From positions 1 through 45,852 of the forward strand of contig NZ_JAENGP010000006.1 of assembly GCF_016595155.1 (NCBI RefSeq): 45,852 nucleotides of DNA, read 5' to 3'. How positions within the stretch are numbered: position 1 is the stretch's first letter; every line of letters begins with the position of its first letter. The DNA is from Advenella mandrilli (GTDB lineage Bacteria > Pseudomonadota > Gammaproteobacteria > Burkholderiales > Burkholderiaceae_B). This document shows positions 11,297 through 45,846 of the stretch, in pieces. Under the pieces are notes generated by a model. It saw only the letters and a list, made by a program, of their open reading frames with translations. It was not told where the DNA came from and did no database searches. Position numbers and translations under genes: made by a program.

Positions 11297-11778
11297 ATAG
11301 CTGCTCGGTTTTTAAAGGTTTTTTGTTTGGGTTTTAAATTGGCATTTGATTTTCCAGGTGTGTCATGTTGGGTTCTTGATTGGCGGCGTGCAATCACTCT
11401 GCGGCTTTGCTCTGTCACAGGCGTATGCATAACTTTCTAGAACAGGTAAAAGGTGTGGAAAGTGCAGCCTCCTGCAGCGACTTCGGCCCGCAGGGGCGTC
11501 GGAGCAAAGGAGGCTGCACTTTCCGCGCCGCTCTAAAGAAGAACGAATCCAATCCTAAAATCGAATAAATTCCATAACTGAACGCATTGCCAAATAGAAT
11601 GAATTTGTAAAACACCTTCCTGTAACCCGATCAAACCAATATCATGGTAGAAAAATACTGGCTCAAAACGCATTGAATAGCTTGCTGCATAAAGAACATA
11701 CCCGCTTGAGCGAAATAAACAAGCATGTTCTACTACTGACAGGCATTCACCCAACGGCATGAAACAGGAATTTTTACA
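11297..11778. other. intergenic region between porin and porin remnant
   Basis: No credible gene is visible. The main content is the hairpin element at 11457-11524 (listed separately). The rest is ordinary mixed-composition DNA up to the start of the truncated porin. Confidence 0.6.
11457..11524 (-). repeat. hairpin element A: conserved core with 16-bp inverted arms
   Basis: Arms GGAAAGTGCAGCCTCC (11457-11472) and its exact complement (11509-11524) enclose a 36-nt core. Read on the minus strand, the core contains TTGCTCCGACGCCCCTGCGG followed by GCCGAAGTCGC. This aligns with the cores of elements B (39567) and C (45771). The arms are unrelated to those of B and C. With G-U pairs the RNA stem of the plus strand extends five further pairs (GGUGU/GCGCC). 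No T-run follows on the plus strand. Confidence 0.85.
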
Positions 11779-12159
11779 ATGGCTTCTACCTCAGCAACCC
11801 CTAAGAATGCCCTGCACCTGGCAGGCATATTACTCATCACCTTAACCTTACCAGCCACCACCCACGCCACGAGCCTCCAGCTCTATGGCACCCTGGATGG
11901 CGGTTTTTACTCCCATTCCAGCAAAACCCAAGGCCATTTCATCCATCCTGGCACCAGCCAATCAACCCCCTTTTCCATCCGTTCCCAAAACAGTGGGATT
12001 GGCAGTGGCCTGAAAGACGAAAGCAAAATAGGTCTACGCGGATCGCATAATATAGGTGGTGGCAACCGGATATTTTTTGAGCTGGAAGAAGAAATTGATA
12101 TTGCCACCGGACATCGTAGCCGTGATAGGGGTACCCGGGTAATAGGCATTGGTGGATAG
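11779..12159 (+). pseudogene. truncated porin gene (N-terminal 126 residues only)
   Basis: The frame encodes a signal-peptide-like start (hydrophobic HLAGILLITLTLPATTHA). It then gives TSLQLYGTLDGGFYSHSSK and SKIGLRGSHNIGGGNRIFFELEEEID, which match the first strands of the adjacent full porin (SSVTLYGVVDGGVGYTS and NRWGLKGTEDLGNGTSAIFQLE). It stops soon after RDRGTRVIGIGG, near where the full porin has LFGRKAILGL. Roughly 230-330 residues of barrel, including the C-terminal Phe, are missing and do not reappear downstream. A 126-residue piece cannot form a barrel, so I call it a decayed porin. Divergence from the intact porin argues against a recent duplication. Confidence 0.8.
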
Positions 12160-12180
12160 TAGAAAAATATTCAATTAATA

Positions 12181-12208
12181 AAAACTACTTGCCCTGTCAA
12201 GTGGTTTT
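12181..12208 (+). terminator. hairpin after the truncated porin, possible old terminator
   Basis: AAAACTACTTG (12181-12191) pairs with CAAGTGGTTTT (12198-12208) with one G-U pair over a CCCTGT loop, ending in TTTT. It may be the surviving terminator of the lost porin and would also shield the nuo operon. Confidence 0.5.
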
Positions 12209-12291
12209 GCAATTAACATTAATAAAAATAAAAAAACATGAAATATGTCGTTTTCCCTAAGTGATTGGGTATCAACCTGCCGATGAAATGA

Positions 12292-12297
12292 TACAAT
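12292..12297 (+). promoter_or_regulatory. possible -10 element of the nuo operon
   Basis: TACAAT in the context TGATACAAT lies 52 bp before the nuoA ATG. The -35 region is weak (TATCAA at 17 bp). It is the best promoter candidate between the upstream hairpin and nuoA, but is unproven. Confidence 0.35.
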
Positions 12298-12348
12298 CAG
12301 AAGGTTTAAGAAATTTAATCAAGTTTTCAATTTAGGTGGCTGCGTAAC

Positions 12349-12708
12349 ATGAATTTAGCTGAATATTTTCCAGTATTACTGTTTATTCTCGTTGCGGGTG
12401 GTTTGGGTGCATTTCTGTTGCTAGCGGGGCGTTTTCTGGGTCCCAACCGGCCAGACCCTGAAAAAAACTCACCCTACGAGTGCGGATTTGAGGCCTTCGA
12501 AGATGCGCGCATGAAATTTGACGTGCGCTACTATCTCGTTGCCATCCTGTTTATTCTGTTCGATCTTGAAATCGCCTATCTTTTCCCATGGGCTATTGCC
12601 AACGGGCATGTTGGTCTGGTTGGTTTCTGGACCGTCATTGTGTTCCTGGCAGTCCTTACTGCCGGTTTTGTTTACGAATGGAAAAAGGGTGCACTTGACT
12701 GGGATTAA
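12349..12708 (+). CDS. nuoA: NADH-quinone oxidoreductase subunit A
   Basis: NuoA (ND3) is a small membrane subunit of respiratory complex I, sitting at the joint between the arms. The 119-aa protein has three membrane helices (about 7-29, 62-83 and 88-110). It carries the conserved loop [22 protein letters not shown], whose cysteine marks the active/deactive switch region in mitochondrial ND3. The second helix begins with [14 protein letters not shown]. It is the first gene of the nuo operon, preceded by an AGGTGG ribosome site, and nuoB follows 21 bp later. Confidence 0.97.
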
Positions 12709-12729
12709 TCCAAGCGGTGTCTAAAAACT

Positions 12730-13215
12730 ATGTCTGATCAAAATGTATTAAATAAACAGGGCTTTCTGGTTACCAGTGCCGATGCCGTCATCAACTGGGC
12801 CAAAACCGGCTCCATGTGGCCCGCCACCTTCGGTCTGGCCTGCTGCGCGGTTGAAATGATGCACGCCGGTGCCGCCCGATATGACCTTGACCAATTCGGT
12901 ATCATCTTCCGCCCCAGTCCCCGTCAATCCGACGTCATGATCGTGGCCGGTACCCTTTGCAATAAAATGGCTGCTCCCCTGCGTAAAGTTTACGACCAAA
13001 TGGCCGAACCCCGCTGGGTCGTTTCCATGGGTTCCTGTGCCAACGGTGGTGGCTACTACCACTACTCCTACTCAGTCGTTCGGGGCTGCGATCGCATCGT
13101 GCCGGTTGATATCTACGTTCCGGGCTGTCCGCCAACAGCAGAAGCCCTCATCTACGGCATGTTGCAGTTGCAGAATAAAATCCGCCATACCAACACCATT
13201 GCGCGTGAAGCGTAA
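12730..13215 (+). CDS. nuoB: NADH-quinone oxidoreductase subunit B
   Basis: NuoB (PSST) carries cluster N2, the last iron-sulphur centre before quinone. The ligands are visible as the tandem Cys38-Cys39 in [13 protein letters not shown], Cys103 in [10 protein letters not shown] and Cys133 in [12 protein letters not shown]. The quinone-site stretch [18 protein letters not shown]-like (here KMAAP) is conserved. The protein is 161 aa, normal for beta-proteobacteria. It is soluble, in the peripheral arm, and lies between nuoA and nuoC in the canonical order. Confidence 0.97.
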
Positions 13216-13247
13216 GATGTTGGCAAGCTAAGGTTCACGAAAATCCT

Positions 13248-13856
13248 ATGTCTCGTTTACAAACTTTAAAACAAAATGTGCTTGCCCATCTGGGCGATCA
13301 GCTCAACCTGATCGAAGCCTATGGTGAGCTCACCCTGGAAATCCCGGCCAACAAATGGCAGGAAACCTGTACGCGTCTGCGCGACACGCCTGAACTGGGT
13401 TTTGAAACCGCCATCGACCTGGCAGGTGTAGACTACTCTACCTGGGGTGCACCGGCCGTTAACGCCGCCGAAAAATTCCCAGCGCGCTTTGCGGTTGCCG
13501 TTCAATTGCTGTCATTACGCAATAATTGGCGTCTGCGCATTCGTGCCTGGGCGCCCAATGATGAATTTCCCATGGTGGCCTCGCTCATTAACGTATGGCC
13601 AACCCTTAACTGGTTCGAGCGCGAAGCCTTCGATCTGTACGGTATTGTGTTCGACGGTCACCCCGACCTGCGTCGTATTCTTACCGACTACGGTTTCATC
13701 GGACACCCGTTCCGCAAAGACTTCCCCATTTCCGGTCACGTTGAAATGCGCTACGACGAAGAAGCCAAACGCGTCATTTACCAGCCAGTTACCATAGACC
13801 CGCGTGAAATCACGCCAAGGGTAATTCGTGAAGAAGGTTACGGAGCAGGACGTTAA
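13248..13856 (+). CDS. nuoC: NADH-quinone oxidoreductase subunit C
   Basis: NuoC (30-kDa subunit) is a structural protein of the complex I peripheral arm that packs against NuoD. The 202-aa product carries the family signature from [20 protein letters not shown] through [17 protein letters not shown]. NuoC and NuoD are separate genes here, two bases apart, whereas E. coli has them fused. No cofactor ligands are expected. Confidence 0.97.
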
Positions 13857-13858
13857 AC

Positions 13859-15115
13859 ATGTCAGAAATTAAAAACTATACCCTTAACTTCGGCCCCCAG
13901 CACCCGGCAGCCCACGGTGTGCTCCGTCTTATTCTTGAAATGAACGGCGAAGTCATCCAGCGGGCTGACCCGCATATTGGCCTGTTGCACCGTGCAACAG
14001 AAAAACTGGCCGAACACAAAACCTATTTGCAGGCCCTGCCATACATGGACCGGCTCGATTACGTCTCCATGATGTGCAACGAGCACGCCTATGTCATGGC
14101 CATCGAAAAACTGCTAGGCCTGGAAGTTCCCCTGCGGGCACAGTATATCCGCGTCATGTTCGACGAAATCACCCGTCTTCTGAATCACCTCATGAGTGTG
14201 GGTACCCACGCCCTTGACGTGGGCGCCATGGCGGTCATGCTGTATGCTTTCCGTGAACGCGAAGACCTGATGGACTGCTACGAAGCCGTCTCGGGTGCCC
14301 GTATGCACGCGGCCTATTATCGTCCCGGTGGCGTATATCGTGACCTGCCCGATACCATGCCCAAAAACAACATGGACACCAAATACCGCAGCAAGCGCGA
14401 CATAGACCGCATGAACGAAGACCGCGAAGGCTCGTTGCTGGACTTCATCGAGGCGTTCACCAAGCGCTTCCCAGGCTGTGTTGACGAGTACGAAACACTG
14501 CTTACCGACAACCGCATCTGGAAACAGCGTCTGGTGGGTATTGGTGTGGTAGACCCTGAACGCGCCAAGGCCCTGGGCTTTACCGGCCCCATGCTGCGTG
14601 GTTCAGGGGTTGAGTGGGACTTGCGTAAAAAAGAACCTTACGAAGTTTATGATCGCCTGGATTTTGATATCCCGGTTGGCGTCAATGGCGATTGTTACGA
14701 CCGTTATCTGGTACGTGTGGCCGAAATGCGTGAAAGTAACCGCATTATTGCCCAGTGCGTGCACTGGTTGCGTAACAACCCCGGCCCGGTCATTACCAGT
14801 AACCACAAAATCGCGCCACCCAAACGCGAAAGCATGAAGACCAACATGGAAGAGCTGATTCACCACTTCAAGCTGTTCTCTGAAGGCTTCCCGGTGCCGG
14901 CCGGTGAGGTTTACTCTGCGGTAGAGCACCCCAAAGGTGAGTTTGGTATTTATATGGTGTCCGATGGCGCCAACAAGCCTTATCGCCTTAAAATCCGTGC
15001 GCCCGGCTTTGTCCACTTGCAATCCCTAGATGAAATGTCTCGTGGTCACATGCTGGCTGATGCCGTAACCATTATCGGTACACAAGATATCGTGTTCGGT
15101 GAAATTGATCGCTAA
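13859..15115 (+). CDS. nuoD: NADH-quinone oxidoreductase subunit D
   Basis: NuoD (49-kDa subunit) forms the quinone-binding cavity with NuoB and is related to the large subunit of [NiFe] hydrogenases, although it has lost the nickel-binding cysteines. The 418-aa protein shows [21 protein letters not shown] near the N-terminus, [12 protein letters not shown], and the conserved C-terminus [20 protein letters not shown] followed by [10 protein letters not shown]. The start is two bases after the nuoC stop, implying translational coupling. Confidence 0.97.
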
Positions 15116-15141
15116 TACTGGCGAATAACTGGATAGTAAAA

Positions 15142-15633
15142 ATGTTGCTTTCTGAACAGGCTTATACAAAGATTGATAAAGAGCTGGCAAAGTATCCCGC
15201 CGATCAGCGTTCGTCTGCCATCATGTCTTCCCTTCGTATTGCACAAGAAGAGAACGGTTGGCTGTCAAGCGATCTGATCGCCGAAATAGCCGGCTATATC
15301 GGGGTAGAACCCATTGCAGTCCAAGAGGTTGCCACCTTTTACGACATGTTTGATATGAAACCCGTTGGCAAATTCAAAATTACGGTATGCACCAATTTGC
15401 CCTGTGCCCTGCGTGATGGTGTGAAAACCGCCGAATATATCAAAGAAAAACTGGGCATTGGTTTTGGTGAAACTACTTCTGATGGCGCCTTTACCCTGAA
15501 AGAGGGCGAGTGCATGGGCGCCTGTGGCGATTCACCTATTTTGCTAGTCAATAATCACCATATGTGTGTGCGCATGTCACAGGAAAAAATTGATGAAATG
15601 CTGGCTGATATGCTCAAGGAGGCACAGGCATGA
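15142..15633 (+). CDS. nuoE: NADH-quinone oxidoreductase subunit E
   Basis: NuoE (24-kDa subunit) belongs to the NADH-dehydrogenase module and binds the [2Fe-2S] cluster N1a. The thioredoxin-like fold provides Cys83 and Cys88 (CTNLPC) and Cys124 and Cys128 (CMGAC). Length is 163 aa. Its stop codon overlaps the nuoF start (ATGA at 15630), so the two partners of the flavin module are translationally coupled. Confidence 0.97.
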
Positions 15634-16988
15634 GTTTCCTTGATAAATACTCCCACGGTTTAATTGCCAATCCGGGTAATGACCTGTCCAACAGCATGGC
15701 GCTGCATGGCCGTCATATCAAGCCACAAATTCTTGATGGCATTAATGGCGAGAACTGGCACCTGGACGATTACGTCAAGCGCGGTGGCTACGAAGCCCTG
15801 CGTAAAATCCTTACAACGGGACTGTCCCAGGAAGACGTGATTGCCGAAATCAAGGCCTCCGGCCTGCGTGGCCGTGGTGGTGCGGGTTTCCCAACCGGCC
15901 TTAAATGGAGCTTCATGCCCCGCACGTTCCCGGGCCAGAAATATCTGGTCTGCAACTCCGACGAAGGCGAGCCGGGTACCTTTAAAGACCGCGATATTCT
16001 GCGCTTCAATCCGCATTCGGTTATTGAAGGCATGGCCATTGGTGCCTATGCCATGGGTATTTCTGTTGGATACAACTATATCCACGGTGAGGTTTTTGAA
16101 ATTTACAAGCGTTTCGAAGAAGCGCTTGAAGAAGCGCGCAAGGCCGGCTTCCTGGGTGATAACATCCTGGGTTCCAGCTTTAGCTTCCAGCTGCATGCGC
16201 ATCATGGCTATGGTGCCTATATTTGTGGTGAAGAAACCGCCTTGCTCGAATCCCTTGAAGGCAAGAAAGGCCAACCGCGATTCAAACCGCCATTTCCGGC
16301 CAGTTTTGGCCTGTATGGCAAGCCAAGTACTATTAACAATACCGAAACCTTTGCGGCTGTCCCCTGGATTATCCGTAACGGCGGGCAGCAATACCTTGAG
16401 GTGGGCAAGCCCAATAATGGTGGTACCAAGCTGTTTTCCATCACCGGTGATGTAGAGCGTCCCGGTACCTATGAAATTCCGCTAGGCACACCCTTTGCCA
16501 CCCTGCTTGAACTGGCCGGCGGCATGCGTAACGGGCGTAAGCTAAAAGCGGTTATTCCCGGTGGTTCCAGTGCGCCCGTACTGCCCGCCGACATCATGAT
16601 GGATACCACCATGGACTATGACTCTATCGCCAAGGCCGGCTCTATGCTGGGTTCTGGCGCGGTTACCGTCATGGATGAATCCCGTTGCATGGTTAAATCA
16701 TTGCTGCGCCTGTCTTACTTCTATTTTGAAGAAAGCTGCGGCCAGTGTACGCCATGCCGTGAGGGTACCGGCTGGTTGTACCGTATTGTCAATCGCATCG
16801 AAAACGGTCAGGGTCGTCCTGAAGACCTGGATATGCTTGACTCGGTTGCCAGCAATATCATGGGACGCACAATTTGTGCATTGGGCGACGCGGCAGCCAT
16901 GCCCGTACGCGGTTTCTTAAAGCATTATCGCGATGAGTTCGCGCACCACATCGAGCATAAGCAATGTGTGGTTCCTCACTATTTGTAG
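15630..16988 (+). CDS. nuoF: NADH-quinone oxidoreductase subunit F
   Basis: NuoF (51-kDa subunit) oxidises NADH through FMN and passes electrons to cluster N3. The 452-aa protein has the glycine-rich NADH/FMN motif [10 protein letters not shown] (81-90), the flavin stretch [13 protein letters not shown], the SLBB region near 270-310 and the N3 ligands Cys370, Cys373, Cys376 (CGQCTPC) and Cys416 (TICALGD). It overlaps nuoE by four bases and is followed nine bases later by nuoG. Confidence 0.97.
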
Positions 16989-16997
16989 GTCAAAGCA

Positions 16998-19307
16998 ATG
17001 GTTGAACTTACCATAGACGGCAAACCCGTATCAGTGCCTGAAGGCAGCATGGTTATGCATGCCGCCCAGGAACTGGGGGTCTACGTGCCGCATTTCTGTT
17101 ATCACAAAAAACTTTCTATTGCTGCCAGCTGCCGTATGTGTCTGGTTGAGGTAGAAAAAGCCCCTAAAGCCTTGCCTGCATGCGCAACACCGGTTACGCA
17201 GGGCATGATTGTTCATACCTGTTCTGCCAAGGCGGTTGCTGCACAAAAGGCAGTCATGGAGTTCCTGCTTATTAATCACCCCCTTGATTGCCCCATTTGC
17301 GATCAGGGCGGAGAGTGTCAGTTGCAGGACTTGTCCGTGGGTTATGGAGAATCCGCATCCCGCTACAAAGAAGAAAAACGGGTGGTTTTCCATAAAGACG
17401 TGGGTCCGTTAATTTCAGCCGAAGAAATGACTCGCTGCATTCATTGCACGCGATGCATCCGTTTCGGTCAGGAAGTAGGCGGCATTATGGAGCTAGGCAT
17501 GGTTGGCCGCGGCGAACACGCCGAAATTACCACTTTTGTGGGTCATTCCATTGATTCCGAACTGTCTGGCAACATGATTGATGTATGCCCGGTGGGTGCG
17601 TTAACGTCAAAACCTTTCCGCTACACGGCCCGTACCTGGGAACTGGCCCGTCGCCGTTCAGTCAGCCCGCACGACAGCGTGGGCAGCAATCTGGTCGTGC
17701 AGGTCAAGGGTGAGCAGGTCATGCGTGTGGTTCCCTTCGAAAACGAAGACGTTAACGAATGCTGGATTACCGATAAAGACCGCTGGTCGTATGAAGGCCT
17801 GAACAGCGAAGACCGTTTGCAAACCCCCATGATCAAAGGGGACGACAACGTATGGCGCGAGGCTTCCTGGAATGACGCCTTAACCGCTGCCGCACAAGCA
17901 CTGGGCCGCATTAACGAGACCCAGGGTATTGGTCAGATTGGTGCCTTGGCCACCGAATATTCAACCGTTGAAGAATTGGCGTTGTTAGGGCGCCTGGTAC
18001 GCGGTTTGGGTTCCGAGCATATTGATTTTCGCCTGCGCCAGAACGATGCCGGTTTTGAAGCGGCATTAAACGGTGTGCCATGGCTGGGTATGCCCATTAC
18101 AGAACTCAATAACCTTGATCGTGTATTGGTTGTTGGGTCAACCCTGCGCAAAGATCATCCTTTGTTTGCACAGCGCCTGCGTCAGGCTGCTAAACATGGC
18201 ACACAAATTGTCCTTATAGACAGTTTTGGCGATAATCCACTGTTCCCGGTTGCCGCCCGTATCACGGTTGCACCCAGCCAGCTGGCGGCAACGCTGGCCC
18301 AGGTTGGCCGTGCACTGGTGGCCCAAAAAGAGGGCACCCAGGCCGATGGTACCGATCCTGTTCAGAAAGCAGCGGCAATTCTGGCCAGTGGCAGCAATAG
18401 TGCTGTATTACTGGGTAATACGGCGGTTTCTGCCCCCGATGCGTCCAATATTGCCGCCTATGCACAAGCGGTGGCCAATGGTATTAACGGCAAACTGGGC
18501 TTTTTAACTGCAGGTGCCAATACGGTGGGCGGTTATCTGGCGGGGGCCGTGGCTAAAGAAAATGGCATGAACCTGCCCAAGATGTTGCAAAACCCATTAA
18601 AGGCATTTATTGTCTTGCACGCAGAACCCAAACTGGACTGCGATAATGGCGTTCAGGCCCAGGAAATGCTGACCAATGCGTTTTCAATTGCATTAACCCC
18701 GTTCAAATCAGCGGCCCAGGACTGGGCTCGCATCATGTTGCCGGTGGCGCCGTTCACTGAAACCTCCGGTACCTTTGTCAATGCCGAAGGCCGTGCCCAA
18801 AGCTTCAAGGGTGTGGTGGCCGGAAAAGGCCAAAGCCGTCCGGGCTGGAAAGTCCTGCGTGTGCTGGGCAATATCCTGAAACTGTCAGACTTCGAAGACG
18901 AAACATCCGAAACTATTCGCGATGCCGTGTTGCAAAATGGTTACGTTGCGCGTCTGGGCAACAAGGTCGTGACAGATCCCCAAGTGCCTGCCGTGGCACC
19001 TGTTGGTCTTGAACGGGTGGCTGATGTGCCTGTTTACCGCACCGACGCCATGGTTCGCCGTGCCGAGTCCTTGCAACTGTCTCCGGCCAGTGTTATCCCC
19101 CGCGTGCGCATGAATGCGCAAACCATGACCTCACTGGAACTGGCTAACGGTATTCAGGTAAAAGTGAAATCCGCTAGCGGTGAAGTTATCCTTGAGCTTG
19201 AGCAGGACGACACGTTGGCCAACAATACCGTGCGTATTTCCCACGCATTCGAACAAACTGCAGCATTGGGTAGTGCCTTTGCTCAACTCACTGTGGAGCG
19301 CGTCTAA
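16998..19307 (+). CDS. nuoG: NADH-quinone oxidoreductase subunit G
   Basis: NuoG (75-kDa subunit) continues the electron wire of complex I. The 769-aa protein starts with a ferredoxin domain whose [2Fe-2S] N1b ligands are Cys34, Cys45, Cys48 and Cys62. N5 has the His-Cys3 set His94, Cys98, Cys101 and Cys107. N4 has Cys147, Cys150, Cys153 and Cys197. A molybdopterin-oxidoreductase-like domain follows from about residue 220 but has no cofactor role. The extra N7 cysteines found in E. coli NuoG are absent (the segment reads [14 protein letters not shown]). The gene shares one base with nuoH (TAATG). Confidence 0.97.
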
Positions 19308-20401
19308 TGGATATCTGGTCTTGGTTCACTGATGGTGTTGCCGCATTTGACGCCTGGGGCGCCGATCTGATTGGTGCAACACCGTGGTTGGTCATCTGGT
19401 CAATCATTAAAATCCTGGTTATCGCCTTGCCAATCATTATTTGTGTGGCTTTCCTTACTTTGTGGGAACGTCGCATGATTGGTTACATGCATATTCGTCG
19501 TGGCCCCAACCGGGTGGGTCCTGGCGGTATTTTGCAGCCTTTTGCAGACGTATTCAAACTACTCACGAAAGAGGTGATTGTTCCTGAAAAAGCCAATAAG
19601 GTGCTTTATATTCTGGCACCCATCATGACTTTGCTGCCAGCGTTGGCCGCATGGGCCGTGATTCCATTTGGTCCGGAAACCGTGCTGGCAAACGTTAATG
19701 CCGGTTTGCTGTATGTCATGGCCATTACCTCGCTGGGTGTTTATGGCGTGATTATCGCAGGCTGGGCATCCAACTCCAAATATCCGTTTCTGGGTGCCAT
19801 GCGTGCTTCGGCGCAAATGATTTCCTATGAACTGGGTATGGGTGTTGTACTGGTTACCGTCTTGCTGGTGTCTGGTACGTTAAATATGAACGGTATTGTT
19901 CAGGGCCAATTAACGGGCTGGTTTGCCGATCGTGGCCTTAACTTTCTGTCATGGAACTGGTTGCCCCTGTTGCCCCTGTTCGTGGTGTATGTCATTTCAA
20001 TTGTTGCTGAAACCTGCCGTCACCCATTCGACGTGGTCGAAGGGGAGTCTGAAATTGTGGCCGGGCATATGGTTGAGTATTCAGGTATGGGCTTTGCCAT
20101 GTTCTTCCTGGCTGAATACGCCAACATGATCCTGTTGTCGGCCATGGCTTCCATCATGTTCCTGGGCGGCTGGTCATCACCGCTGGATTTTGCGCCATTT
20201 AACTGGATTCCGGGTTGGTTGTGGCTGGGCCTTAAAACATTCTTTGTCGTGTCCTTCTTTATTTGGTTCCGGGCTTCATTTCCCCGCTATCGTTACGACC
20301 AGATCATGCGTCTGGGGTGGAAAGTATTTCTTCCGTTAACGGGTGTGTGGTTGCTGATTGTTGCCATTTGGATGCAGACACCGTTCAATATTTGGAAATA
20401 G
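19307..20401 (+). CDS. nuoH: NADH-quinone oxidoreductase subunit H
   Basis: NuoH (ND1) is the membrane subunit that anchors the peripheral arm and helps form the quinone channel. The 364-aa protein has about eight to nine membrane helices. Conserved loops include [20 protein letters not shown] and [28 protein letters not shown], rich in the acidic residues thought to couple quinone reduction to proton pumping. It ends [10 protein letters not shown]. Order and spacing are canonical. Confidence 0.97.
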
Positions 20402-20415
20402 GCTAGAAGAAAATT

Positions 20416-20904: not shown

Positions 20905-20922
20905 TCGGCAGGTGAGCAAACT

Positions 20923-21872: not shown

Positions 21873-21885
21873 GGGGAATTTCAGC

Positions 21886-23895: not shown

Positions 23896-23896
23896 G

Positions 23897-25387: not shown

Positions 25388-25396
25388 GTCTGGACA

Positions 25397-26881: not shown

Positions 26882-26893
26882 GGTTTTATAAGT

Positions 26894-31818: not shown

Positions 31819-31824
31819 TCACCC

Positions 31825-31860: not shown

Positions 31861-31895
31861 TGGCAGATCAATTTTACTCAGGATAAAAACCTTTT

Positions 31896-32582: not shown

Positions 32583-32625
32583 CGCTTTTTCATCCTTTCA
32601 TTGTGGGTCGTGGTCATAAAGTTGT

Positions 32626-34757: not shown

Positions 34758-34769
34758 GCGGAATAAAGT

Positions 34770-35427: not shown

Positions 35428-35431
35428 GCGT

Positions 35432-37450: not shown

Positions 37451-37977
37451 AACGTTGGTTGCCATTAATTTTGTTTGCCGGTTTGCTGGTGCTGTTAGGG
37501 GTTGGCTTGGGCATGAACCCACGGGATTTGCCTTCGGCTTTGGTGGGGAAACCCGTCCCCCAGTTTGCCTTGCCTGATTTGATGCATACCCAAAAGCAGG
37601 TGACCGGGCAGGATTTTAAAAACAGGGTTTGGGTCTTGAATGTCTGGGCCTCCTGGTGTGTCAGTTGCCAGGCAGAACACGATTTGCTGCTTAAGTGGCA
37701 ACGCCCCGAAGGGGTGGATCTGGTGGGCCTGAATTACAAGGATGACTCACGCGCTGCCCGTGCCTGGCTGGTGGATATGGGAGGGAATCCCTATGACCGT
37801 ATTGCTGTTGACATGAAGGGACTGGTGGGCATTGATCTGGGCGTGTATGGTGTGCCCGAGACGTTTATTATCAATCGGCAAGGAGAAATTGTTGAGCGCT
37901 TTACCGGTGCCTTAACTGAAGAAGCCCTTGAGAAGAAGCTCAAACCCATGCTTGCCAAGGCGCTGGAAACACCATGA
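37447..37977 (+). CDS. ccmG: thiol:disulfide interchange protein CcmG (DsbE)
   Basis: CcmG is a membrane-anchored periplasmic thioredoxin that reduces apocytochrome cysteines before heme ligation. The 176-aa protein has one N-terminal helix and the active site WASWCVSC (Cys71, Cys74), with the family's GVPETFIINRQGEI cis-proline region. It overlaps ccmF and ccmH by four bases each. Confidence 0.96.
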   Translation: MKRWLPLILFAGLLVLLGVGLGMNPRDLPSALVGKPVPQFALPDLMHTQKQVTGQDFKNRVWVLNVWASWCVSCQAEHDLLLKWQRPEGVDLVGLNYKDDSRAARAWLVDMGGNPYDRIAVDMKGLVGIDLGVYGVPETFIINRQGEIVERFTGALTEEALEKKLKPMLAKALETP

Positions 37978-38498
37978 GAAATTTCTTTATACATTTTTTT
38001 AGACCGCTGCAAGGTTTGGCCCTGGCTTTACTGGGGGCTACCCTGCTGCTTGCCGGGCAAGGTTTGTTTTTTTCAGGTACGGGCTGGGCGCAAATTGAAA
38101 CACGACTGAGTGTGGCCGAAGAAGAACGGCTACGCGAAATAGCGAAAGAATTGCGTTGCCTGGTTTGTCAGAATGAGTCGATTGCCGACTCACAGGCCGG
38201 TTTGGCACAAGATTTGCGCAAGGAAATCCGGGGGCAAATTACCATCCATAAAACAGATGAGCAAATTATTGATTATCTGGTTCTGCGTTATGGTGAGTTT
38301 GTTCACTATCGGCCCGTATTCAGCCCAAAAACCTATTTGTTATGGCTGGGTCCGTTTGCCTTATTGGTGTTTCTGCTGTTTTCCCTGTGGCGTCATATTC
38401 GTCGTCAGGCTCAGCAGGCGACAGCGACAGTCCTTGATGAACAGGATATTGCCAAAGATATACAACGTTGGGAAAAAGATTTCGGGAATAAAAAATGA
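37974..38498 (+). CDS. ccmH: cytochrome c biogenesis protein CcmH (CcmL)
   Basis: CcmH works with CcmG to keep CXXCH motifs reduced and presents apocytochrome to CcmF. The 174-aa protein has a signal/anchor, the redox motif RCLVCQNESIADSQAGLAQD (Cys62, Cys65) and a C-terminal membrane helix (YLLWLGPFALLVFLLFSLW). Here CcmH and CcmI are separate genes, unlike E. coli where they are fused. Confidence 0.95.
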   Translation: MRNFFIHFFRPLQGLALALLGATLLLAGQGLFFSGTGWAQIETRLSVAEEERLREIAKELRCLVCQNESIADSQAGLAQDLRKEIRGQITIHKTDEQIIDYLVLRYGEFVHYRPVFSPKTYLLWLGPFALLVFLLFSLWRHIRRQAQQATATVLDEQDIAKDIQRWEKDFGNKK

Positions 38499-39436
38499 CA
38501 GAATTAATTTTACTGGGACTATTCATTAGTGCCATTGTGGTTGCCTTGTTGTTTTGGGTAATGCAAAAAAGCAAATATGAAAAATTGCAAAAACGGGCTC
38601 TTGAGCAACGCTACATGGTGCATGAGCAAACCTTGCAGGAGCTCCAGCAAGAGTTGGCCGCTGGCAATATGAGCGAGGACAATTACCGGCAGGCGCAGCT
38701 TGAAGCGCAAGTCCAGCTGGTTGAAGATATGCGACGCCTGGAAGCCCAGCCACAGGCACCTGCTGGCAGCTCGGCAAAGTACATGCCGTGGGCGATTGTG
38801 GCCGTGCCACTGGTGGCCGCAGCCGGTTATTACTATTTGGGTAACCTGGCCGCACTTAATCCGGCCGCTACTTTTGGCATGAATGGTAATGTAGAACAGT
38901 TTTTGGGGGCGGTTGAGCAACTGGAGAAAAAAGCCGCCGCGAACCCCGAAGACTTGACGCAGCAGTTGATGCTGGCACGCAGTTATCGTGCGATGGGGCG
39001 GCATGGCGATTCTGTCGCTGCTTATGGTCGTGCCTGGGAAGTGATCAAGGATAATCCAACCGAATTATCGCTGTTTGCCGGTGTGTTGGCCTTGTATCGG
39101 GGCAGCTTTGAAGGCAAGCCCGATGAGTTGCTTAAACAGGCTTTGGCGATTGATGCTGAAGACCATGATGCTTTGCTGCTTTTGGGCGGTTCTTATTACG
39201 AGAAGGGTGATTACCGTAAGGCGATTGAAACCTGGGAAAAGCTGCTGGCGCTGTTACCGGCAGGTAGCGAGGAAAGAAGTGATTTAGTGCGCCAGATTGA
39301 AGATACCAAAGCCGTGGAAGCCGATCCGACTAAAGCGGTAGATGGCGACCTGGCTGACGAAATGGACGATTTACCGCATCCGCCTATTCGTTCTGTTGAG
39401 GATATTCCTGAACATAAGTTTATGAAAAGTAATTAA
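38495..39436 (+). CDS. ccmI: cytochrome c biogenesis protein CcmI (CycH), TPR apocytochrome chaperone
   Basis: CcmI holds apocytochrome C-termini for heme ligation. The 313-aa protein has two membrane helices (about 5-23 and 93-110) with a leucine-zipper-like cytoplasmic loop between them. A periplasmic TPR region follows, with repeats around PEDLTQQLMLARSYRAMGRH and EDHDALLLLGGSYYEKGDYR. It overlaps ccmH by four bases and is the last gene of the cluster; a 40-bp tandem repeat and hairpin element B follow. Confidence 0.93.
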   Translation: MTELILLGLFISAIVVALLFWVMQKSKYEKLQKRALEQRYMVHEQTLQELQQELAAGNMSEDNYRQAQLEAQVQLVEDMRRLEAQPQAPAGSSAKYMPWAIVAVPLVAAAGYYYLGNLAALNPAATFGMNGNVEQFLGAVEQLEKKAAANPEDLTQQLMLARSYRAMGRHGDSVAAYGRAWEVIKDNPTELSLFAGVLALYRGSFEGKPDELLKQALAIDAEDHDALLLLGGSYYEKGDYRKAIETWEKLLALLPAGSEERSDLVRQIEDTKAVEADPTKAVDGDLADEMDDLPHPPIRSVEDIPEHKFMKSN

Positions 39437-39490
39437 GTGCGGCTTCTATCTTTGAATAGGCAGTATGCTCTATCATCATGGGATTAGGGT

Positions 39491-39570
39491 GAGGCCAAAA
39501 TGAGGATTGCGGCTTTGTGATGAAACGGGGTATGCCGTGATTGGGATTTCGGCTTCGTTATAAAGCGGGG
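39491..39570. repeat. degenerate 40-bp tandem duplication
   Basis: Units 39491-39530 and 39531-39570 match best in their last 26 bases, GATTGCGGCTTTGTGATGAA+ACGGGG against GATTTCGGCTTCGTTATAAA+GCGGGG (21 of 26 identical). The second unit runs straight into the left arm of hairpin element B. Its origin is unknown. Confidence 0.65.
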
Positions 39571-39642
39571 AATAATCACCCGCTTGTGTTGCTCCAACCG
39601 CCCTGCGGGCAGAATCGCACCCCCAGCGGGTGATTATTCCCC
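39567..39642 (+). repeat. hairpin element B: conserved core with 17-bp inverted arms
   Basis: Arms GGGGAATAATCACCCGC (39567-39583) and the exact complement (39626-39642) enclose a 42-nt core with TGCTCCAACCGCCCTGC then GGGCAGAATCGCA. The core is almost identical to that of element C and related to A. It sits between the convergent ends of ccmI and serB. TTTT follows on the plus strand, so it might also terminate ccm transcripts. Confidence 0.88.
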
Positions 39643-39650
39643 TTTTGCAA

Positions 39651-40496
39651 TTAAGAAAACCAGTTCAACACTGCATCCAGCCCAGAGTAATTAATACTGT
39701 AAGCCGCCTGTTCCTGCACCACCGGCTTGGCCCGGTAGGCCACCGAATAAGCCGCATGCCCCATCATAATCAAGTCATTGGCGCCATCACCCATGGCAAT
39801 ACATTGTTCTGGTGTGGCATTTTCTTTTTGAGCCAATGCCTGCAGATAGTTTGCCTTGGCCTGGCCATCTACAATATCTCCCAACACGCGGCCGGTTAAC
39901 ACACCGTTTTCAATTTCCAGTGTATTGGCATGCGTTTCATCAAGCCCCAGACGTTCTTGCAAACGTTGCGTGAAAAACGTAAAACCACCAGAAACCAGCA
40001 ATACTTTCAAGCCCGCTGCTTGCGCACCCTGGACCAGTTTTTCTGCCCCGGGATTCAGGCGCAGGCGTTCTTCATACACCTTTTCAAGCGCACTGGCTGG
40101 CACGCCTTCCAGCAAAGCCACCCGACGGCGCAGGCTTTCTGAAAAATCCTTGATTTCCCCCCGCATGGCGGCTTCGGTAATGGCTGACACTTGTTGCTTG
40201 CGGCCGGCCATATCGGCAATTTCATCAATACATTCAATATTGATTAAGGTGGAATCCATGTCCATGGCCAGCACTTTCATGTCGGCAAGGGGTTTGTAAT
40301 CATTGATGAAGGCCGTATCAACCCGGTTGGCGGCAGCCCATTGCACGATTTCTTCCCGGCAGGCAGGATCTACGTCTATCAGGCGGGCGGCACAGCTGTT
40401 GATGTGATGAATACCGTTGGCACTTGAAATGGCAGCGGCATGTTCAATAAGGGTGCCCAGAATGCTTGAAGTTTGCAAGATAAGGTGTGTGGTCAT
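39651..40496 (-). CDS. serB: phosphoserine phosphatase
   Basis: SerB removes phosphate from phosphoserine, the last step of serine synthesis. The 281-aa HAD-family protein has the nucleophile motif MDMDSTLI (Asp79, general acid Asp81), LLVSGGFTFF (second motif serine), the motif-III lysine region and GDGANDLIMM. The N-terminal segment of about 70 residues is a short regulatory-like domain common in beta-proteobacteria. It follows mfd on the same strand after 57 bp and ends convergently with the ccm cluster. Confidence 0.95.
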   Translation of the reverse strand: MTTHLILQTSSILGTLIEHAAAISSANGIHHINSCAARLIDVDPACREEIVQWAAANRVDTAFINDYKPLADMKVLAMDMDSTLINIECIDEIADMAGRKQQVSAITEAAMRGEIKDFSESLRRRVALLEGVPASALEKVYEERLRLNPGAEKLVQGAQAAGLKVLLVSGGFTFFTQRLQERLGLDETHANTLEIENGVLTGRVLGDIVDGQAKANYLQALAQKENATPEQCIAMGDGANDLIMMGHAAYSVAYRAKPVVQEQAAYSINYSGLDAVLNWFS

Positions 40497-40553
40497 GGCT
40501 TGTTTTAAAATAAATTGGTTTATGCTTGAATAATTTTAAGTGTAAGTAAACAG

Positions 40554-43500
40554 TCAGGATAAGGATTTCAGCAGCTGGCGTACCGCATTCACGCGCTGCT
40601 TGATATCGGGCATTTTAGCCAGTTCCATACGCAGTTTGTCGGCACCGCTAAAGCGGATGTGTTTTTGTTTTTGTATCAGCTCTATCATGCGTAGCGGGTC
40701 TATATTGGCTTTAGGGCCAAAGTTTAGCATGGCCTGCTCATCACTAATATCAAGGCGGGTAATGCCTAGCGGCTCGGCAAGAATCCGTAACCGGTGGGTG
40801 GTCATCAGCATGATGGCCGGTTCGGGCAGTTTGCCAAAGCGGTCAATCAGTTCTTCCTGTATGGTGAGTAGCTCGTCTTCGTTTTTGGCGTGTGCCAGGC
40901 GCTTGTAAATGGACAGGCGGGCATGTACATCACCGCAATAATCAGAAGGCAGCAGGGCAGAGGTATGCAGCTTGACATCACAGACTGGGGCAAAGGGGGA
41001 ATCCAGATCAGGCTCTTCGCCGGCTTTCAGGGCGCGTACCGCCTCGTTAAGCATATCGGTATACATGGAAAAGCCAATCTCATGAATATTACCCGATTGC
41101 GATTCACCCAGCACTTCACCGGTGCCCCGAATTTCAAGGTCGTGCATGGCCAGGAAAAAGCCCGAACCCAGTTCTTCCATGGACTGGATCGCTTCAAGGC
41201 GTTTTTTGGCATTGTTGGTAATCGCATCCTCGCCCGGCGTTAACAGGTAGGCATAGGCCTGATGGTGTGAGCGGCCAACCCGGCCACGCAACTGGTGCAG
41301 CTGGGCCAGACCCAGGCGGTCGGCACGATGGATAATAATTGTGTTGGCACTGGGCACGTCAATCCCGGTTTCAATAATGGTGGTGCACAGCAGTACATTG
41401 AAGCGCTGCTGGTAGAAGCCTTTCATGACTTCTTCCAGTTCGCGCTCGGGCATTTGGCCATGGGCCACGGCAATGCGGGCTTCGGGTACCAGCTCTTGCA
41501 GGCGCGCCTTGCGGTTGTTGATGGTTTCCACTTCATTATGCAGGAAGTAAACCTGCCCACCACGCTTGAGTTCGCGCAGAATGGCTTCGCGGATGGTGCT
41601 GCCGTCTTCTCGGCGCACAAAGGTTTTGATGGCCAGCCGTTTTTGCGGTGCGGTGGCAATCACTGAAAAGTCGCGAATGCCTTCCAGCGATAGGCCCAGA
41701 GTACGGGGAATGGGGGTGGCGGTTAGGGTAAGAATATCAACCTCGGCCCGCAGTGCCTTCAGGGCTTCTTTCTGGCGTACGCCAAAGCGGTGCTCTTCAT
41801 CAATAATCACCAGGCCCAGTTCCTTGAACTGGACGTCTTTGGACAGTATTTTGTGGGTACCAATGACGATGTCCACCGTACCTTTGGTAATGCCTTCGAT
41901 GGTGGCGGACACTTCTTTGCCAGACCTGAAGCGGGATAGCTCGGCCACGTTAACAGGCCAGTCGGCAAAACGGTCGGCAAAGGTTTGGGCGTGTTGTTCG
42001 GCCAGCAGGGTGGTTGGGCACAGCAGGGCCACCTGTTTGCCATTGGCTACGCTCAGAAAAGCCGCACGCAGGGCCACTTCGGTTTTGCCAAAGCCCACAT
42101 CACCGCATACCAGCCGGTCCATGGGTTTGCCCGAGGTCATGTCATTAAGAACGGCTTCAATGGCATCTGCCTGGTCGGCGGTTTCTTCAAAACCAAAGCC
42201 TTCCACAAAGCTTTGGTAGTCGCTAAAGGGCAGCTTGAAAGAATAACCCTGGCGTGCGGCCCGCAGGGCATACAGGTTAAGCAGTTCAGCCGCCGCATCG
42301 CGAATTTGTTTGGCTGCTTTTTTACGGGCCTTGTCCCATTGGCCCGAGCCCAGCTGGTGCAGGGGAGCCTGCTCGGGGTCGGCACCGCTATAGCGGGCAA
42401 TCACATGCAATTGTGAAACCGGCACGTACAGGGTGCTTTTGTTGGCGTATTCCAGGTGCAGCAGTTCTACATTGCCTTCGCCCAAGTCCATATTGACCAG
42501 GCCATGATAGCGGCCAATGCCGTACTGGACATGGACCACCGGGTCACCTTCGCGCAGCTCGGACAAGTCCCGCACCATGGCGTCAACATCGCTGCTGCGT
42601 TCTTGTTGTCGGCGCCGACGCTGGGTGTAGGTGGCCGTGCCGGGGTACAGGTCATTTTCAGTGAGCAGGGCAAAATTAAGGTGCTTAACCAGAAAGCCGG
42701 TATTGATGGGGGCCACCACCAGGCCGAAACCGGACTCGGATTTAATAAATTCGTGGACGGTTTCCTGGCTTGTGTCGGGAGCCAGCTTGTGTTCTTGCAG
42801 CATTTGCAGCAGGGTTTCACGGCGGCCGGCCGAATCGGCGCAGAGTAAAATTTTATGCTGCCCATTGGCTACCATTTCCTGCAGTTTGGCAAAGGGGTGC
42901 TCGGCACGGCGGGCAACAGCGACATTGGGTGCGGCGGTGATTTCTTCTGAAGCCTGCTTGCTGTCCAGGTTAAGGCGGGCAAAACTTTTGAATTGTTGGT
43001 AAATCTGGTCACGCGACAGGAATAGCTGTTCGGGCGGCAGTACCGGCCGTTCGCGGTCTGACTTGATGAAGTTATAACGGCTGCTGGTGTCGCTGTGAAA
43101 ACGCGCAATGGTGTCTTCCAGGTCACCCAGGGTTACCGTGATGGTTTCAGGCTTCAAGTAATTGAAGAGGGTGGCGGTTTCATCAAAGAAAAGCGGCAGG
43201 TAGTATTCTATGCCCGCAAAGGCAATGCCGTTACCTACGTCTTTATAGGGCAGGCAGCGGGACGGGTCGCCTTCAAATATTTCACGAAAACGTGAGCGGA
43301 AGCGGGTGCGTGCGGCTTCATCCATGGGAAATTCACGGCCGGGCAACAGCTGGACTTCATTCACCGGGTACAGGCTGCGCTGGGTATCAATGTCAAAACT
43401 GCGGATGGAGTCTATTTCGTCGTCGAAGAGGTCTATCCGGTAAGGCAGCACTGAGCCCATGGGGAACAGGTCAATAAGGCTGCCTCGGATGCAGAACTCA

Positions 43501-44012
43501 CCGGCAGCCGTAACCTGGGTGACATGGCTGTAGTTGGCCAGCATGAGCTGCTCACGCAGGGCAGATTCATTAACGCGATCGCCTTTTTTGAAAGAAAAGG
43601 AATAAGCAGCCAGAAATGAAGGTGGGGGCAGCCGGTACAGTGCCGTGGTAACGGGTACGGTAAGGATGTCCACGTCTTCAAGCATGAGAGCATGCAGGGT
43701 TTTCAGGCGCTCTGAAATAAGGTCCTGGTGCGGCGAAAAACCGTCATAGGGCAGGGTTTCCCAGTCGGGTAGCTGGCGTGCCTTTACCTGCGGGTCGAAA
43801 CGTCTGGTTTCTTCGGCCAGCCGTTGCGCCTGTAACGGGTCGGCACATAGCACGACAATGGTTTTTTGGGCGGCCCGGGCCAGTTCAGCCAATAGCCAGG
43901 CGTCTCCGGAGCCGGCCGGGCACGGATGGTTGAATCGTTGGCCGGGCTTCAGGCTGGAAAGCAGTTTGGATGTTGAAGGTAAAGACACAGCAGTCGGAAA
44001 GTGGGGATGCAA
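40554..44012 (-). CDS. mfd: transcription-repair coupling factor
   Basis: Mfd recognises RNA polymerase stalled at DNA damage, displaces it and recruits UvrA. The 1152-aa protein has the UvrB-like N-terminal region (about 20-300) and the RNA-polymerase-interacting CarD-like domain with VVHVQYGIGRYHGLVNMDLG (about 490-550). The SF2 translocase follows with Walker A GDVGFGKT (637-644), the DEEH box (738-741) and RGRVGRSHHQAYAYLL. The C-terminal autoinhibitory domain completes it. Length agrees with E. coli Mfd (1148). The ribosome site is weak. It is divergent from ispD. Confidence 0.97.
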   Translation of the reverse strand: MHPHFPTAVSLPSTSKLLSSLKPGQRFNHPCPAGSGDAWLLAELARAAQKTIVVLCADPLQAQRLAEETRRFDPQVKARQLPDWETLPYDGFSPHQDLISERLKTLHALMLEDVDILTVPVTTALYRLPPPSFLAAYSFSFKKGDRVNESALREQLMLANYSHVTQVTAAGEFCIRGSLIDLFPMGSVLPYRIDLFDDEIDSIRSFDIDTQRSLYPVNEVQLLPGREFPMDEAARTRFRSRFREIFEGDPSRCLPYKDVGNGIAFAGIEYYLPLFFDETATLFNYLKPETITVTLGDLEDTIARFHSDTSSRYNFIKSDRERPVLPPEQLFLSRDQIYQQFKSFARLNLDSKQASEEITAAPNVAVARRAEHPFAKLQEMVANGQHKILLCADSAGRRETLLQMLQEHKLAPDTSQETVHEFIKSESGFGLVVAPINTGFLVKHLNFALLTENDLYPGTATYTQRRRRQQERSSDVDAMVRDLSELREGDPVVHVQYGIGRYHGLVNMDLGEGNVELLHLEYANKSTLYVPVSQLHVIARYSGADPEQAPLHQLGSGQWDKARKKAAKQIRDAAAELLNLYALRAARQGYSFKLPFSDYQSFVEGFGFEETADQADAIEAVLNDMTSGKPMDRLVCGDVGFGKTEVALRAAFLSVANGKQVALLCPTTLLAEQHAQTFADRFADWPVNVAELSRFRSGKEVSATIEGITKGTVDIVIGTHKILSKDVQFKELGLVIIDEEHRFGVRQKEALKALRAEVDILTLTATPIPRTLGLSLEGIRDFSVIATAPQKRLAIKTFVRREDGSTIREAILRELKRGGQVYFLHNEVETINNRKARLQELVPEARIAVAHGQMPERELEEVMKGFYQQRFNVLLCTTIIETGIDVPSANTIIIHRADRLGLAQLHQLRGRVGRSHHQAYAYLLTPGEDAITNNAKKRLEAIQSMEELGSGFFLAMHDLEIRGTGEVLGESQSGNIHEIGFSMYTDMLNEAVRALKAGEEPDLDSPFAPVCDVKLHTSALLPSDYCGDVHARLSIYKRLAHAKNEDELLTIQEELIDRFGKLPEPAIMLMTTHRLRILAEPLGITRLDISDEQAMLNFGPKANIDPLRMIELIQKQKHIRFSGADKLRMELAKMPDIKQRVNAVRQLLKSLS

Positions 44013-44295
44013 AGAGTTTATTTTAACAGCGATGTTGTGTGCTTTTAAGGTGAATGTTGTTCTCTGGGTTTTTAACCATTAGTGACTTTTCCTGGCTGGA
44101 ATGTCGGTTTGGTTTTATCTTCATAATGCTTTTATTACGCAAGCAGTATAAAGCCTGTTTGAGTAAATTCCGTTGCATTCCCCACCTGAGCCTTAATGGT
44201 TAGGTGGCGGTAGTTCATGGCGTTGTGATGACGTGGTCCTGTGTATGCAATAATGCTGTTTTGGTGTATTGATGGAATTTTTCCATATAAAAGCG
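44013..44295. other. divergent intergenic region between mfd and ispD
   Basis: No gene is visible. It must hold the promoters for mfd (leftward) and ispD (rightward), but no strong -35/-10 pair stands out. A small hairpin (CCACCT/AGGTGG, about 44182-44207) is the only structure noticed. Confidence 0.5.
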
Positions 44296-44994
44296 ATGGA
44301 TGAAAAAATAATTGCCCTGATTCCTGCCGGGGGTATTGGTGCGCGTGCACTGGGTGGCGGACATTCGGGCCCCAAGCAGTATCGCGTGATTAACGGCGTG
44401 CCCATGCTGGTGCATACGGTTAAGGCTTTGTTAAGCCATGCCGGTATTAGCCAGGTGCATATTGGTGTGGCACCTGGCGATGCTTATATCACTGATTGCG
44501 TCATGCCAGAGCCTGCACGGCTTAGCATCCATCGCAGCGGCGGTGCCAGCCGGGCCGATACGGTACTTAATACCTTGCTGGCCAGCCAGGCGGCTGATCA
44601 TGACTGGGTACTGGTGCATGATGCGGCCCGTCCGGGGTTGCGGGCCGACTCCCTGGCAGCGTTGGTTCAAACCTGTCTGTTGCATGACCGTGGGGGTATT
44701 TTGGCGACACCCGTTCCCGATACGGTTAAAAGGGCGGTGGTGGATAGTGGTTTGGATGTGATTGAAAGCACGGTGCCACGTGATGGCCTATGGCTGGCGC
44801 AAACACCGCAGATGTTCAGGGTTGGCCTGTTGCGTGATGCACTGCTAATGGCCAAAGCGCAGGGTTTTGAAGTGACTGATGAGGCCTCTGCCATGGAGTT
44901 TGCCGGGTACGCGCCGTTGCTGGTCAAGGGTAGCCTAGAGAATATGAAGGTGACCTGGCCCGGTGATTTTGACATGATGGCGCACTGGCTATAA
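44296..44994 (+). CDS. ispD: 2-C-methyl-D-erythritol 4-phosphate cytidylyltransferase
   Basis: IspD joins MEP to CTP in the non-mevalonate isoprenoid pathway. The nucleotidyltransferase fold shows IIALIPAGGIGARALGGG followed by SGPKQY (the CTP-binding loop), VLVHDAARPGLRADSL, ATPVPDTVKRA and WLAQTPQMFR. The start at 44296 (232 aa) fits the family N-terminus; an ATG at 44272 would add eight residues. Neither has a strong ribosome site. The loop between GIGAR and PKQY is a few residues longer and Gly-richer than usual. ispF follows after about 195 bp. Confidence 0.94.
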   Translation: MDEKIIALIPAGGIGARALGGGHSGPKQYRVINGVPMLVHTVKALLSHAGISQVHIGVAPGDAYITDCVMPEPARLSIHRSGGASRADTVLNTLLASQAADHDWVLVHDAARPGLRADSLAALVQTCLLHDRGGILATPVPDTVKRAVVDSGLDVIESTVPRDGLWLAQTPQMFRVGLLRDALLMAKAQGFEVTDEASAMEFAGYAPLLVKGSLENMKVTWPGDFDMMAHWL

Positions 44995-45188
44995 TGCAGG
45001 CCGGGCGAGCAGTTGTATTGAAGGTGCCGCCTGGCTGAAAGAGTCTGGGTTAGCTTGGTATGGCTGGGTCTGGCGAAGTGGCCTGGTGTACCCGGTATTT
45101 TGACAGGCTCTGATAGCCAGAGGAAGATGGCAAAGCCGTTAAATCAGTGTGAAAATAAAGTAAATAGATTAATTGAACAGGAAAAGAA

Positions 45189-45674
45189 ATGACAGTACCT
45201 TTCAGAGTGGGTCAGGGGTTTGATGTGCATGCACTGGTTGAAGGCCGGCCCTTGATTTTAGGCGGTGTAACCATACCGCATACGCACGGGCTTAAGGGGC
45301 ATTCTGATGCCGATGCCCTGTTGCACGCGATTACCGATGCTTTGTTGGGGGCAGCGGGCCTGGGCGATATTGGCCGGCACTTTCCCGATACCGATCCTGC
45401 TTATAAGGGGGCGGACAGCCGTGTGCTGCTAAGGGCGTCCTATGCCAAAGTGCAAGAGGCCGGCTGGCAGGCGGTAAACGTGGATGCCACGATTCATGCT
45501 CAGGCACCTAAAATCATGCCGCATGCACCGGCCATGGTGGCTAATATCGCGAGTGATTTGGGCTTGCCCGAAGATTGCGTGAATGTGAAAGGCAAAACCA
45601 ACGAGCATTTGGGGTATTTGGGTAGAAAAGAAGGGATTGCCGCGACGGTGGTGGTGTTGCTGGCTAAGGGGTGA
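45189..45674 (+). CDS. ispF: 2-C-methyl-D-erythritol 2,4-cyclodiphosphate synthase
   Basis: IspF cyclises CDP-ME-2-phosphate to MEcPP in the isoprenoid pathway and acts as a homotrimer with zinc. The 161-aa protein has zinc ligands Asp12, His14 (GFDVHAL) and His46 ([12 protein letters not shown]), the [12 protein letters not shown] and [11 protein letters not shown] active-site regions and the C-terminal [20 protein letters not shown]. An AGGAAAAG ribosome site precedes the ATG. It pairs functionally with ispD upstream. Confidence 0.97.
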
Positions 45675-45770
45675 TGGGAAGGGAATGTTTGATGGCTAGG
45701 GGGCCAGGGGGCTATTAGGCAAGCGGTAATTATCATCAGCAATGAATCATAGGCAGTGAATGATAAGCAG

Positions 45771-45846
45771 CAGCGGTGCGGTGTTTCCTGCCCTGCTCCA
45801 ACCGCCCTTTGGGCAGAATCGCAGATCAGGAAACACCGCACCGCTG
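45771..45846 (+). repeat. hairpin element C: conserved core with 20-bp inverted arms
   Basis: Arms CAGCGGTGCGGTGTTTCCTG (45771-45790) and the exact complement (45827-45846) enclose a 36-nt core with TGCTCCAACCGCCCTTT then GGGCAGAATCGCA. The core matches element B at all but two of about 30 positions. The arms share nothing with A or B. No T-run follows within the window. It lies about 100 bp after ispF. Confidence 0.88.

Follow-up and report, generated by a model that had tools for sequence, protein, structure and literature searches.

Introduction

The closest described systems are REP elements and REPINs, short extragenic palindromes that, in the available parts of their accounts, form GTAG and CGTC superfamilies and lie mostly 3´ of genes, between unidirectional or convergent genes; they occur in subfamilies, some have bulged stems, and published families range from thousands of copies down to 20–100 or fewer (PMC3733652; PMC8266576). 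The hairpin elements of Advenella analysed here are likewise extragenic imperfect palindromes in multiple copies. They differ from REPs in that the family has 9–18 copies per genome, in that the arms are long and free in sequence, and in that the flanks of 47 copies, inspected by eye, are without a constant GTAG or CGTC tag, GTGG or GTAG occurring in a minority only.

Other repeats share single features with these elements. Integron attC sites have conserved outer sites and a variable centre, whereas the Advenella elements have a conserved centre and a variable outside and are not attC sites. The RU-1 repeats of enterobacteria are the ERIC elements. They are 127 bp long and MITE-like in the accessible portion of their description (PMC2759123) and, set beside them by description only, the Advenella elements are intergenic MITE-like repeats of similar size. 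No target duplication, a trait of MITEs, was found for the Advenella elements at two empty sites, the junctions of which are too diverged to show one either way. The repetitive hairpin-forming elements of sponge mitochondria are also dispersed intergenic hairpins; their stems are conserved and their loops vary, as far as the available text of the source goes (PMC2800124), and in Advenella the reverse is observed. Finally, template switching is reported to homogenise the arms of inverted repeats and to invert their spacer, and both outcomes have a likeness in the present family; the cases in the accessible part of that study are isolated yeast gene sequences with few spacer bases changed (PMC8604942), whereas the Advenella elements form a dispersed family with a conserved spacer of 30–36 nt.

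Results

Three hairpin elements in the window

The window is the whole stretch of 45,852 nucleotides that was analysed, contig C34 of the 3.28 Mb genome G000; G002, G008 and G004 are the other carrier genomes. Re-reading of the window located all three hairpins reported in the first-pass annotation, copies A, B and C (Table 1). Their common core was also recovered: with up to 3 mismatches allowed, the pattern TGCTCCRACNNCCCTNNGGGC matches exactly these three places in the window, with 0 mismatches each, and in 100 shuffles it has a mean of 0.24 matches and a maximum of 2, never 3. None of the three copies overlaps a reading frame taken as a gene, in agreement with the intergenic placement first proposed. 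Arm lengths had been given as 16, 17 and 20 bp; the last holds for copy C, whereas the perfect arms of copies A and B measure 17 bp and 18 bp. Similarly, the shared core of about 30 nt describes B and C, which have 30-nt type-2 cores, but not A, whose core, on the minus strand, is of type 1 and measures 36 nt. The core of A directly abuts its arms, and unpaired linkers of 5 nt and 3 nt separate core and arms in B and C, respectively. The arms of the three copies were thought to be unrelated, which is correct within the window but not for the whole family, in which the same arms recur at other loci and in other genomes. Near copy A, a 126-aa frame (window 11779–12159) matches the start of the Porin_4 profile only and lies behind a full porin (9859–11226); it is probably a porin remnant.

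Table 1. Coordinates of the window elements, half elements and facing pairs.
Feature	Position	Strand	Remark
Copy A, 3´ arm GGAGGCTGCACTTTCC	11457..11472	-	17 bp with the innermost T-A pair 11473/11508
Copy A, type-1a core TTTGCTCCGACGCCCCTGCGGGCCGAAGTCGCTGCA	11473..11508	-	identical core in 5/47 copies
Copy A, 5´ arm GGAAAGTGCAGCCTCC	11509..11524	-	arm subfamily of 8 members
Fourth element, probable half remnant (one arm + TTTGCTC)	11385..11412	+	whole element here in G002 (G002:C23:16163)
Copy B, 5´ arm, 18 bp	39567..39584	+	same arms at G004:C52:1207
Copy B, type-2 core TGCTCCAACCGCCCTGCGGGCAGAATCGCA	39590..39619	+	
Copy B, 3´ arm, 18 bp, then TTTT	39625..39642	+	
Copy C, 5´ arm, 20 bp	45771..45790	+	
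Copy C, type-2 core	45794..45823	+	apex TTT in place of TGC
Copy C, 3´ arm, 20 bp	45827..45846	+	6 bases short of contig end
Half element ending in or near hairpin tip	G008:C6:32515-32588 (L130)		
Half element ending in or near hairpin tip	G004:C39:383-446 (L128)		
Half element ending in or near hairpin tip	G004:C96:706-746 (L129)		
Facing pair	G002:C23:16163 + 16286		
Facing pair	G002:C35:13242 + 13473		
Facing pair	G008:C11:448775 + 449012		
Facing pair	G004:C143:4812 + 4960		

A dispersed family in four Advenella genomes

The first-pass annotation anticipated copies beyond these three, and 49 were found in 4 of 10 Advenella genomes with two covariance models that leave the arms free (48 with model R1 and one more with R2): 12 in G000, 10 in G002, 9 in G008 and 18 in G004. 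These counts may be low, as 150 first-look candidates per genome were scored. The same two models found no copies in the other six Advenella genomes. An R2 match at G000:C35:5-81 (E 0.54) and two R2 matches on the opposite strand of copies already counted were left out. An R1 match in G077 (E 0.003) was rejected because it looks like a chance match in coding sequence.

Exact patterns alone detected 5 copies in G000 and 15 copies in 4 of 61 genomes; among named records, pattern matches are present in those of Advenella faeciporci KCTC 23732, A. alkanexedens LAM0050 and the MAG AS09scLD_384. With stricter filters, 6 of 200 genomes of the bacterial family have a match, namely the same four carriers, one chance match and a genome of genus g62 (86% complete), whose two copies agree in core subtype but differ in their arms. 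Across 399 genomes of the order, the strict type-1a pattern, which is blind to types 1b and 2, matched G000 itself and no other. Viral contigs gave 0 matches to the type-1 pattern, and no plasmid was found with window copy B as query and no phage with a type-1b copy.

The view that the elements belong to no named family is consistent with these searches: no described repeat matched, and Rfam 15 has no match at the element's place in the window at gathering scores. Five other element loci, searched at E up to 1, gave no match to a known RNA family and one unrelated weak match. Core-string and subject searches of the published, mostly openly accessible, literature yielded no account recognised as this hairpin family. 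The Advenella hairpins are a dispersed repeat family and not chance. They constitute a small family of REP-like extragenic palindromes with a reversed layout, in which the loop is constant and the paired stem is free.

Anatomy of the core

Each element is about 80–110 bp long. Between the complementary arms lies a core of 30–36 nt that bears a small hairpin with a C-GNA-G tip. Three core subtypes are distinguished, 1a (GCCCCTNCGGGC), 1b (GCCGCTNCGCGC) and the shorter type 2 (GCCCTNCGGGC), and one type-2 copy, copy C of the window, carries GCCCTTTGGGC instead of GCCCTNCGGGC. The copies that could be anchored number 47 of 49 (39 type 1 and 8 type 2), one being cut by a contig end and one having a deletion. 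In the type-1 core, 33 of 36 positions keep a single base in 35 or more of the 39 copies, and 31 of 36 are at least 90% conserved; the variable positions are the apical base and a covarying pair, 37-43, which is G-C or C-G. The C-GNA-G tip is read on the complementary strand of the core, where it forms d(GCGNAGC) in type 1b. The sequence d(GCGAAGC) forms a DNA hairpin of unusual stability. With RNA and DNA parameters alike, the complementary strand is predicted to be the more stable one for each of the 6 cores tried. Outside the arms, many 1b copies have a common CCGGTTTCTTCTGT upstream and a T-rich GCAAGTTTG downstream.

Pairing and change of the arms

Complementarity of the arms, originally seen in the window copies, extends to the family: 751 of 809 positions are Watson-Crick in the best local arm-to-arm alignments of 42 distinct copies. 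Both members of the pair have changed in 19 of 30 arm pairs among 8 type-1 sequences and in 17 of 27 among 5 type-2 sequences, in each case among sequences that share ancestry. Paired cells amount to 93.8% for type 1 and 92.6% for type 2, compared with 67.4% and 72.5% in shuffled controls and no more than 47.8% in slid ones; for type 2, one of five measures is weaker, further pair types being matched by 33 of 500 shuffles. With shared ancestry collapsed, the mismatches in 44 in-register copies comprise 11 G-T, 15 A-C and 14 others. A seeming wobble bias to the opposite strand (36 A-C vs 10 G-T) was dropped, as the collapsed counts give p 0.56.

By their arms, the 47 alignable copies group into 14 subfamilies, of which the largest has 17 members; this indicates that arms normally travel with the core. 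Across type-1 subfamilies the arms are 35% identical (25% when shuffled). The type-1 cores of different arm subfamilies differ at a mean of 1.13 of 33 positions, with 195 of 569 pairs identical, while the mean is 1.19 of 33 within arm subfamilies and 1.5 between orthologues (14 pairs); furthermore, five exact core variants are each found with 2–4 arm subfamilies. Cores are thus equally alike across different arms and across orthologues, suggesting that arms may be renewed. The search for arm palindromes without a core, conducted with one arm per type-1 group in 0.88 Mb of partly redundant DNA, gave none, and 16-mers from these arms, with up to 2 mismatches allowed, matched at single, scattered places only.

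Summed over orthologous loci, changed positions are 20 of 420 in the core, 41 of 423 in the arms and 220 of 1661 in the flanks, from 12 comparisons over 9 loci in which g2 enters three times and g5 twice, and for 5 of 24 flank ends the alignment spans less than 10 bases. The impression of hypervariable arms gained from locus g8 therefore does not hold generally: at orthologous loci the rate of arm change does not exceed that of the flanks. It follows that a further step is required to put different arms on identical cores: gradual change at orthologous rates would leave more core differences, so that either core mutations were purged over time or arms were replaced on occasion. At g8, where window copy B is compared with G002, 11 of 22 arm pairs are the same, 10 are changed on both sides and one on one side; all 10 two-sided changes lead from one Watson-Crick pair to another when a 2-base insert in one arm is allowed for. 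Throughout the 12 comparisons, with g8 counted gapped, there are 28 one-sided and 20 two-sided arm changes. Fifteen of these 20 are Watson-Crick to Watson-Crick, 10 of the 15 coming from g8 alone.

Core orientation at orthologous loci

At 4 of 9 orthologous loci the core is reversed with respect to matching flanks, as judged by both flanks at g1, g3 and g5 and by one flank at g9. The orientation is the same at g2, g6, g7, g8 and the G002:C35 / G008:C11:449012 pair. Locus g10, with a single matching flank, was excluded. The gene gaps of g3, g4 and g8 in G004 hold elements with other arms; these copies may be separate insertions and were excluded as well. Read from orthologous sequences, the family keeps a record of past loop inversion.

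Empty sites, half copies and transposases

Two elements have empty orthologous sites: G000:C32:145014 is absent from G004, G002 and G008, and G004:C42:12069 is absent from G000, G002 and G008. In these six empty alleles the best arm match has 7–8 mismatches in 18, as in shuffles, which speaks against the early suggestion that arms are made from local DNA on arrival. Because some alleles have diverged or hold other repeats, the absence of the arms is firm and the exact junction is not, and a target site duplication could not be read at either site. The arms involved in both moves belong to subfamilies present elsewhere and therefore came with the core. A stretch of about 10 bases in one arm at g3 is similar to the flank in G004, which is too short to decide where the arm came from.

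In the search for an autonomous partner with matching ends, an outer-end pattern with 3 mismatches, applied to the four genomes, was not above its reversed-pattern control among the matches listed, and none of four extra matching places that were inspected holds an element. Half copies number four, of which three end in or near the hairpin tip and one, in the window, ends after TTTGCTC; two of the four come from a fragmentary MAG. Such half copies would fit breakage at the hairpin.

The first-pass annotation had proposed a search for a Y1 transposase. As a difference from GTAG REPs, a search for a RAYT (Y1) transposase with PF01797 at E 0.001 gave no match in G000 and none in G002, while G008 has one match and G004 three at this threshold. 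Judged by motif, these G008 and G004 proteins are presumably IS200/IS605 TnpA.

Facing element pairs lie about 45–160 bp apart, the arms differing within each pair (Table 1). Two elements of the same subfamily, at G000:C38:14025 and 15394 (L005), flank a 331-aa reading frame, which we take to resemble RhuM/Fic-like proteins.

Gene context

For the 41 of 49 copies with both neighbours resolved by a simple home-made gene caller, the neighbours are convergent in 26 cases, tandem in 15 and divergent in 0, orthologous and hence non-independent copies included. As background, the 76 gaps 80 bp or longer that were sampled from 240 kb of G000 are 13 convergent, 24 divergent and 39 tandem. In tandem contexts, 8 copies are sense and 7 antisense, with no sense-strand preference. 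Of 44 distinct copies, 24 have a T-run behind the 3´ arm and 3 have one on the other strand; T-runs do not keep to the sense strand of the gene, as they would in a Rho-independent terminator. In the two cases inspected, at G004:C42 and window copy A, a gene next to the element carries a terminator-like hairpin of its own. Another repeated hairpin, GTTCCCACGCTCCTGCGTGGGAATGCATAC with variants (L052, L139-L141), occupies similar 3´ spaces and often adjoins the elements, for example at G000:C37:86850-87200; with up to 5 mismatches allowed, it matches 4 times in 240 kb of G000.

Discussion

The description as a REP-like family with a fixed core and paired variable arms is supported. On balance, these REP-like extragenic palindromes, 3´ intergenic and found in one Advenella clade, are probably non-autonomous mobile DNA whose arms and loop are subject to template switching. 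The core would be a recognition module for some factor acting on the folded strand, and the arms would need only to pair. During replication, template switching in the extruded hairpin would copy one arm onto the other and so keep the two complementary, and the same switching, running through the loop, would invert the core. One process could thus cover complementarity, the absent wobble excess and the flips; it would not account for core constancy or the spread of copies. Several points weigh against this reading: over the 12 comparisons one-sided arm changes are more numerous than two-sided ones, arms at orthologous loci do not outpace flanks, so that different arms on identical cores call for a further step, and neither a transposase nor an autonomous partner nor a target duplication was identified in the genomes and at the sites searched. 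Selection on pairing would also yield compensated changes.

A tentative alternative is that the core is the real unit and at times passes into a new pair of complementary arms, by moving into the loop of another hairpin, by fold-back synthesis or by a template switch within the core from one copy to another; a single core would in this way spread through different stems. Type-1 cores as alike across arm subfamilies as within them or between orthologues, arms of different subfamilies on exact core variants, the different arms of the two g62 copies around a common core and the other-armed G004 elements in the g3, g4 and g8 gene gaps are all consistent with such renewal, as is g8 itself, where, between orthologous flanks, half of the arm pairs have changed and a single one of these changes is uncompensated. 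However, both empty-site moves carry arms of existing subfamilies, no core-less arm palindrome was seen in the DNA searched, and long-term purging of core mutations would yield the same pattern. The bolder form of this proposal is a shade more doubtful still: the mobile unit would be the core, of about 36 nt, which would take up new self-complementary arms time and again, the loop being heritable and the stem supplied or rewritten by strand switching.

Selection on transcripts could also keep the stem paired if the elements were structured RNAs or two-way terminators at mRNA 3´ ends, which we regard as unlikely. Their location 3´ of genes, the T-run after the 3´ arm and a very stable predicted fold fit this idea, which the first-pass annotation had entertained. 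It is weakened by a core that flips against the same flanks and by mismatch counts with no G-U-type excess on either strand; in addition, T-runs are rare on the other strand, yet sense and antisense copies are almost equally frequent in tandem contexts, the inspected neighbour genes have terminator-like hairpins of their own, and Rfam gave no match. Assignment to the GTAG or CGTC REPs proper, moved by a REP-associated Y1 transposase, is less probable again: the imperfect extragenic palindrome, the mid-stem bulge, the 3´ location and a core near REP size would suit it, but the foot of the stem has no constant tag and PF01797 is absent from two carriers. That the family is a product of chance or assembly has negligible probability and was set aside. 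One of the four carriers is a fragmentary MAG that holds half of the half copies, but shuffles never reach three matches, and whole copies stand at orthologous places in separate assemblies of two named strains.

If arms are indeed renewed, pairing would be inherited and stem sequence would not, and the family would be a kind of mobile DNA for which no description was found in the literature searched. Conservation of the core across two genera also points to a putative factor that reads a folded strand. The elements offer a natural test case for self-copying and self-inverting DNA palindromes, a small, well-defined natural series of bacterial palindromes whose arm correction and loop inversion may be read from orthologous loci and could be tested in culture.
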